Positions 25,763-26,156 of a DNA stretch of 33,849 nucleotides are shown here, piece after piece (the stretch's first letter is position 1; the number at the start of each line of letters is the position of its first letter). Source of the stretch: Nitrospirota bacterium (lineage in GTDB: Bacteria > Nitrospirota > 9FT-COMBO-42-15 > HDB-SIOI813); the NCBI GenBank assembly GCA_016217665.1, contig JACRHF010000006.1, positions 1 to 33,849 on the forward strand, written 5' to 3'. Under the pieces are notes generated by a model that ran no database searches, had not been told where the DNA came from, and worked only from the letters and a program-made list of their open reading frames with translations. Made by a program: the position numbers and the translations under genes.

Positions 25763-25793
25763 ATATACCCCGCCATGGAGAGGCGGGGTATAT
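25763..25793. terminator. hairpin between convergent pepA and csp
   Basis: Arms ATATACCCCGCC (25763-25774) and GGCGGGGTATAT (25782-25793) pair over 12 bp with loop ATGGAGA. It sits between two convergent genes and is well placed to end both transcripts. The A/T outer part of the stem gives U-rich RNA, but no long T-run follows on either strand. Confidence 0.75.
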
Positions 25794-25804
25794 AAAATAT
25801 AGGC

Positions 25805-26005
25805 TTATATTTTGACAACATTTTTCGCGTGCGCGCCTTTTGGACCACTCTCCACTTCGAATTCTACTTCCTGACCTTCGGCGAGGGATTTGAACCCCTC
25901 GTCTTGAATGGCTGAGAAGTGTACGAACACATCTTCGCCATTTTCCTGTTCAATGAAACCATAGCCTTTCTTGTCATTGAACCATTTAACGCGACCTTTT
26001 GGCAT
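25805..26005 (-). CDS. csp: cold-shock domain protein
   Basis: The 66-aa protein is a single cold-shock domain: [17 protein letters not shown] (RNP1 KGYGFI) and [11 protein letters not shown] (RNP2 VFVHF). Such proteins bind single-stranded RNA and DNA, melt hairpins and can act as transcription antiterminators. An AAAGGAGGTC ribosome site precedes the ATG. Between that site and any plausible promoter lies a strong terminator-like hairpin (26040-26070), so the gene seems to be expressed by reading through it. The tetraheme cytochrome gene lies upstream on the same strand. Confidence 0.97.
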
Positions 26006-26033
26006 TGCTTCTGACCTCCTTTTCTTTATAAAA

Positions 26034-26070
26034 TAAAAAAACCGCAGAGGCCACTACGACCCCTGCGGTT
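26034..26070 (-). terminator. intrinsic terminator / attenuator in csp leader
   Basis: Read on the minus strand, AACCGCAG (26070-26063) pairs with CTGCGGTT (26047-26040), with two further G-C pairs past a mismatch. It runs directly into TTTTT-A-TTT (26039-26031). The T-run ends about 25 nt before the csp ATG. It may also end cytochrome transcripts. Confidence 0.85.
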
Positions 26071-26127
26071 ACCGATGGCCATCGACATCATCTTCAGTGC
26101 AACAACTACAATGCAATACTGCGTATT

Positions 26128-26156
26128 GTTTTAGCATATACAATATTTACCGTCAA
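26128..26156 (-). promoter_or_regulatory. sigma-70 promoter upstream of csp
   Basis: On the minus strand, TTGACG (26156-26151) and TAAAAC (26133-26128) are spaced 17 bp. The start would be near 26121, giving a ~116-nt leader that includes the terminator hairpin. Confidence 0.5.

Follow-up and report, generated by a model that had tools for sequence, protein, structure and literature searches.

The csp gene and the terminator in its leader

The window, the entire stretch of 33,849 nucleotides that was analysed, carries a csp gene on its minus strand, preceded by the elements collected in Table 1. Read on that strand, they follow in the order promoter, intrinsic terminator with its T-run, ribosome site and csp start at 26005. 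Orthologues of the encoded protein in the same family are 97-88% identical. Downstream, csp converges with a leucyl aminopeptidase gene, and the space between the two contains a perfect inverted repeat, TATACCCCGCC...GGCGGGGTATA (window 25764-25792), with a T-run on neither side.

Table 1. Coordinates of genes and predicted elements at the csp locus of the window
Feature	Position	Strand	Remarks
csp coding sequence, stop included	25805..26005	minus	66-aa cold-shock domain protein; open reading frame; Pfam CSD PF00313, E 3.1e-30
Shine-Dalgarno sequence AAGGAGG	26015..26021	minus	Assigned by sequence; invariant across 5 aligned leaders
U-rich tract of leader terminator	26031..26040	minus	Ends 25 nt ahead of ATG; conserved
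Intrinsic terminator hairpin facing csp, AACCGCAGGGGUC-GUAGU-GGCCUCUGCGGUU	26040..26070	minus	13 bp, 5-nt loop, -22.6 kcal/mol; kept in G003, G004, G006, G007
Predicted antiterminator 3' strand GUGGCC	26049..26054	minus	Overlaps terminator loop and 3' arm
Predicted antiterminator 5' strand GGCCAU	26075..26080	minus	Conserved as GGC[CU]AU amid mostly divergent upstream leader; pairs with 26054-26049 in intermediate fold
Inferred 5' leader of csp mRNA, ~115 nt	26006..26121	minus	Start placed from promoter position, ~7 nt past -10 hexamer
csp promoter TTGACG-17-TAAAAC	26128..26156	minus	-35 TTGACG 26156-26151; -10 TAAAAC 26133-26128; extended -10 TG 26136-26135
Upstream co-directional gene, multihaem c-type cytochrome, 180 aa	26175..26717	minus	Outside csp unit; other genes replace it in G006 and G004/G007

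The initial annotation of this DNA, made from the letters alone, named TTGACG-17-TAAAAC as the sole good promoter, placed it upstream of the hairpin and held that no promoter fits between the T-run and the ribosome site. Both statements stand. The promoter also has an extended -10 element, and its -35 (CTTGACG) and extended -10 (TGn) are kept in all five aligned leaders; a consensus scanner missed it because the sixth -10 base is C. Between the T-run and the Shine-Dalgarno sequence no second promoter was found, as the nearest TATAAA lacks a -35, is not conserved and would leave almost no leader.

A GC-rich hairpin with a T-run 25 nt ahead of csp and facing it, also described in the initial annotation, is confirmed by its coordinates and by its stability of -22.6 kcal/mol, a value that dinucleotide shuffling of the intergenic stretch reached in 0 of 1000 trials; any terminator of -9 or better arose in 63 of the 1000. 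When ~310 kb of the same genome was searched for sense terminators ending 15-110 nt upstream of a start, only 2 of 143 other genes had one, both of them poor long hairpins. As in attenuators, an intrinsic terminator separates the promoter from its gene, all three on one strand. Because the promoter lies upstream of the terminator and no room is left for another, csp would have to be transcribed through its own leader terminator, as had been proposed; with promoter, terminator, Shine-Dalgarno sequence and start in line and no alternative promoter, such passage is very probable.

Leaders of other family genomes with a full csp orthologue were used for comparison. Promoter, terminator and Shine-Dalgarno sequence are kept in four of these genomes (G003, G004, G006 and G007), which represent three other genera (g3, g4 and g6). 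In the leader alignments (A2 and A3) the invariant or nearly invariant segments are the -35 CTTGACG, the stretch GGC[CU]AU.GGU.ACCGC, the terminator 3' arm and the Shine-Dalgarno sequence. Column identity averages 89% over the last 85 nt, and the leader upstream of GGCC is mostly divergent. The leader of the same-genus genome G001 (L002, just before 1501) is without 44 nt that comprise the terminator 3' arm, the T-run and part of the Shine-Dalgarno sequence; this may be a real deletion or an assembly error that skipped the hairpin. Beyond the family, a search with a model of the window-type leader (R2) found no further strong matches, these being confined to five family genomes; the seven weaker matches inspected are terminators in front of various genes, including one csp.

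A predicted antiterminator that competes with the terminator

An alternative stem between GGCCA (26049-26053) and TGGCC (26076-26080, both on the plus strand) had been proposed as a competitor of the terminator. The coordinates are right, and the predicted pairing extends to 6 bp, GGCCAU with GUGGCC. Since the 3' strand overlaps the loop and 3' arm of the terminator, the two folds are mutually exclusive. For the intermediate transcript, which has only just gained GUGGCC and in which the terminator is not yet closed, folding of the growing RNA predicts the antiterminator as the minimum-energy structure in 5/5 leaders; these leaders are related and so do not amount to five independent tests. Its pairing probabilities are 0.66-1.0 in the five leaders, and the same fold appears in 9-22% of shuffled leaders. 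In G006 the stem is reduced to 4 bp, GGCC with GGCC. A different antiterminator, pairing GGCC with GGUC of the 5' arm, is not preferred and is weak in L004.

A few nucleotides later the terminator wins in four of the five leaders, the antiterminator remaining the minimum throughout in G003. At full length and 37 C those same four leaders favour the terminator by 4 to 10 kcal/mol, and by more in the cold; in the window leader the margin of the complete terminator over the best fold that contains the antiterminator is ~9 kcal/mol. Read-through would therefore have to depend on kinetics or on assistance. Crude direct-path estimates put the barrier to leaving the antiterminator at 11-18 kcal/mol for 37 C, with mostly higher values on cooling; behind such a barrier the modelled antiterminator could persist through the termination decision, making a kinetic switch possible. 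Folding of the leaders at low and high temperature, a check that the initial annotation suggested, shifts the equilibrium to the terminator on cooling in four of the five leaders, so that simple melting in the cold would act in the wrong direction.

No covariation is seen in the five window-type sequences, because the pairing segments are nearly identical in all of them. Matches of the leader to the Rfam models Teg23, RT-12 and trpB are weak, all far under gathering scores. Attenuation by a leader peptide was considered and rejected: the AUGGCCAUCGGUAAC frame is open in g1, g3 and g6, but both g4 genomes lack its start codon and no Shine-Dalgarno sequence precedes it. Judged from sequence, a real attenuator with the antiterminator GGCCAU:GUGGCC has a probability of roughly 60%.

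Leader terminators and a second leader design in Nitrospirota

By the same 15-110 nt measure, a leader terminator precedes csp in 46 of 83 Nitrospirota csp leaders, a sample drawn by csp similarity and not at random, versus 38 of 415 shuffled leaders. At least one such leader occurs in 21 of the 31 Nitrospirota families sampled. Among the 80 csp loci of a named-genome set, drawn mostly from other phyla (Acidobacteria, Latescibacterota, Rokubacteria and others), 15 are also positive, some weakly. Csp genes from Acidobacteria, Latescibacterota and Rokubacteria (L078, L099, L101, L092, L102; L044, L062; L049, L056) have other leader terminators that also differ from one another.

A second csp paralogue of the same genome (G000:C52:9886-9976; locus L128; L193) has an unrelated leader, here called type B. 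An alignment of 20 type B sequences (A1) supports a 15-pair outer helix and a 12-pair terminator: both sides change in 13 pairs, versus 3-8 when the pairing is slid, and 82% of cells are paired versus 35-60%. The outer-helix strand GGAAGUUUUUGU can alternatively pair with the terminator 5' arm ACAAAGACUU, in a helix that is 94.5% paired and invariant. Such invariance is expected of strands with several partners, but it leaves the antiterminator without covariation support. The intermediate fold contains the antiterminator pairing in 48 of 48 distinct type B sequences versus 27% of shuffles, although 48/48 is not an unbiased rate, since the pattern used to select these sequences itself includes the strand.

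With a model of type B (R1) the element is detected in 155 of 396 Nitrospirota genomes and 96 of 170 genera, counts that are upper bounds because low-scoring matches include chance terminators. Csp lies directly downstream in 49 of the 50 matches opened. In a set of 24 genomes outside Nitrospirota, type B occurs in one, that of L084. The type B leaders scanned have no match at gathering scores in Rfam release 15, and this widespread Nitrospirota leader is a candidate new RNA family absent from Rfam. The window leader was tried as a member of type B and rejected. It is absent among R1 matches up to E 10, with L006 and L004 reaching only 22 and 18 bits, and window type and type B are thus separate designs. 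The two have in common a csp gene, promoter, predicted antiterminator, terminator and Shine-Dalgarno sequence; they differ in sequence and in pairing plan, since in type B the partner of the antiterminator strand AAGUUUUUGU is the 5' arm of the terminator, and the terminator lies inside the outer helix.

Two segments of type B, GUUUCGGAAGUUUUUG and, downstream of it, a strand like CUCCGGAAACU, recur in csp leaders of Geobacterales and relatives (L040, L041, L045, L059, L061, L064, L066, L071, L073 and L077). These leaders have no U-run terminator and score at most 18 bits with R1 where tested; they are perhaps related leaders that act otherwise.

Terminators are also found by scan before genes for RRM-type RNA-binding proteins in several Nitrospirota families, 20-75 nt before the start in 8 of 27 (L224 at about 1487-1580, L225, and the RRM-type loci L251, L252, L254, L255, L261, L274 and L280), with no such case in the window's own family. 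Attenuation may therefore extend to RNA chaperone genes at large.

Proposed attenuation, its candidate signal and competing readings

The csp leader is proposed to act as a transcription attenuator. RNA polymerase would initiate near 26121, make the ~115-nt leader and reach the terminator, whose U-run lies 25 nt before the start codon. Once GUGGCC (26054-26049) emerges, GGCCAU (26080-26075) could pair with it, which would block the 3' arm of the terminator on its loop side and let the polymerase read through into csp. If this pairing fails, or gives way again within a few nucleotides, the terminator would close and yield only the short leader RNA. The order of parts, the conservation and the predicted competing folds are read from the sequence; that the balance between the two folds is regulated is what we infer.

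The amount of free Csp is the preferred, if tentative, candidate for the signal, with a direct action of temperature on folding kinetics close behind. Csp proteins bind single-stranded RNA. Free Csp in excess would hold the antiterminator strand open and favour termination, an autorepression; after cooling, structured RNA would titrate Csp and allow more read-through. The initial annotation had regarded E. coli Csp proteins as antiterminators, and feedback or temperature-dependent attenuation as plausible. Reports on Csp at terminators go in both directions: E. coli CspD lowers termination (PMC9765468), and B. subtilis CspB and CspD mostly favour it (PMC8307031).

Direct sensing of temperature would be the same attenuator with another signal: the antiterminator would be trapped in the cold and cause read-through with no protein involved. 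In four of the five leaders, cooling does raise the exit barriers from the antiterminator (in the window from 12.9 to 17.8 kcal/mol between 37 and 10 C), but these are crude direct-path estimates that fall on cooling for L004, the equilibrium difference moves to the terminator, and the polymerase slows in the cold as well, so that this variant is doubtful. Slightly less credible is a terminator that does not switch at all, being either a stop of constant, incomplete efficiency by which the csp level is set, or the source of a short leader RNA with a role of its own. Such a stop would accord with the large equilibrium advantage of the terminator and the lack of covariation in the window leader; against it, the competing stem is predicted in every leader folded and more often than in shuffled ones, and the type B leaders of other csp genes have an invariant antiterminator amid covarying helices.

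It is improbable that the terminator serves the upstream gene, with csp merely tolerating read-through. The upstream gene is co-directional and ends ~170 nt before csp in all aligned genomes, as that arrangement would have it, but a conserved promoter lies between this gene and the terminator, so csp transcripts cross the terminator too. Moreover, the terminator sequence stays with csp across three kinds of upstream gene, namely a multihaem cytochrome (window genus and G003), a 439-aa protein (G006) and an ABC ATPase (G004 and G007), and a terminator conserved while its upstream neighbour is swapped belongs to csp. Least probable is an RNA thermoregulator of the E. coli cspA type (Rfam RF01766). 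A match spans 26166-25760 at 82.4 bits, above the gathering score of 78, but the model takes in the coding region, the window terminator sits in an unaligned insertion of the match, and the leader by itself is not hit even when E values up to 10 are admitted; the match thus stems from the csp coding region.

Comparison with known systems sets the attenuator reading in context. With riboswitch, trp and pyr-type attenuators the window leader shares the succession of promoter, leader, mutually exclusive folds of terminator and predicted antiterminator, then gene. It differs from them in that the controlled gene encodes an RNA chaperone, and neither a ligand domain nor a conserved leader peptide was found. 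The likeness to E. coli cspA lies in a structured csp leader and, going by a title cited in PMC4956666, in an extended -10 promoter; the cspA leader works on translation (PMC9947658), whereas the window leader has no RF01766 match unless coding region is included. The B. subtilis cspB and cspC 5' UTRs with their cold shock boxes are likewise csp leaders that affect expression, a single mutation in that of cspC raising it about twofold, but no leader terminator is described for them (PMC8307031). A scan of sampled Bacillus csp loci also detected none. In a search of the literature, mostly its open-access part, no published csp leader with a terminator came up.

The controls known for csp leaders work at the level of translation or stability. 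Transcription attenuation is a known kind of control, here probably applied to csp genes. The recurrence of the window-type leader in related genera, with a second design across the phylum, suggests an undescribed way of switching csp genes. At somewhat less than even odds, Nitrospirota csp genes are commonly controlled by attenuators located in the leader itself, with two or more unrelated designs, type B (AAGUUUUUGU:ACAAAGACUU, outer helix and terminator) being an undescribed, csp-dedicated RNA class through which Csp or temperature sets the Csp level by termination. At other genes, effects of Csp proteins on intrinsic termination have been reported with opposite signs in E. coli and B. subtilis. 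A natural csp attenuator kept with its gene would, if real, allow a direct test of whether Csp acts on terminators and, if so, with which sign; such attenuators would also explain csp control in a phylum without studied cold-shock regulation.
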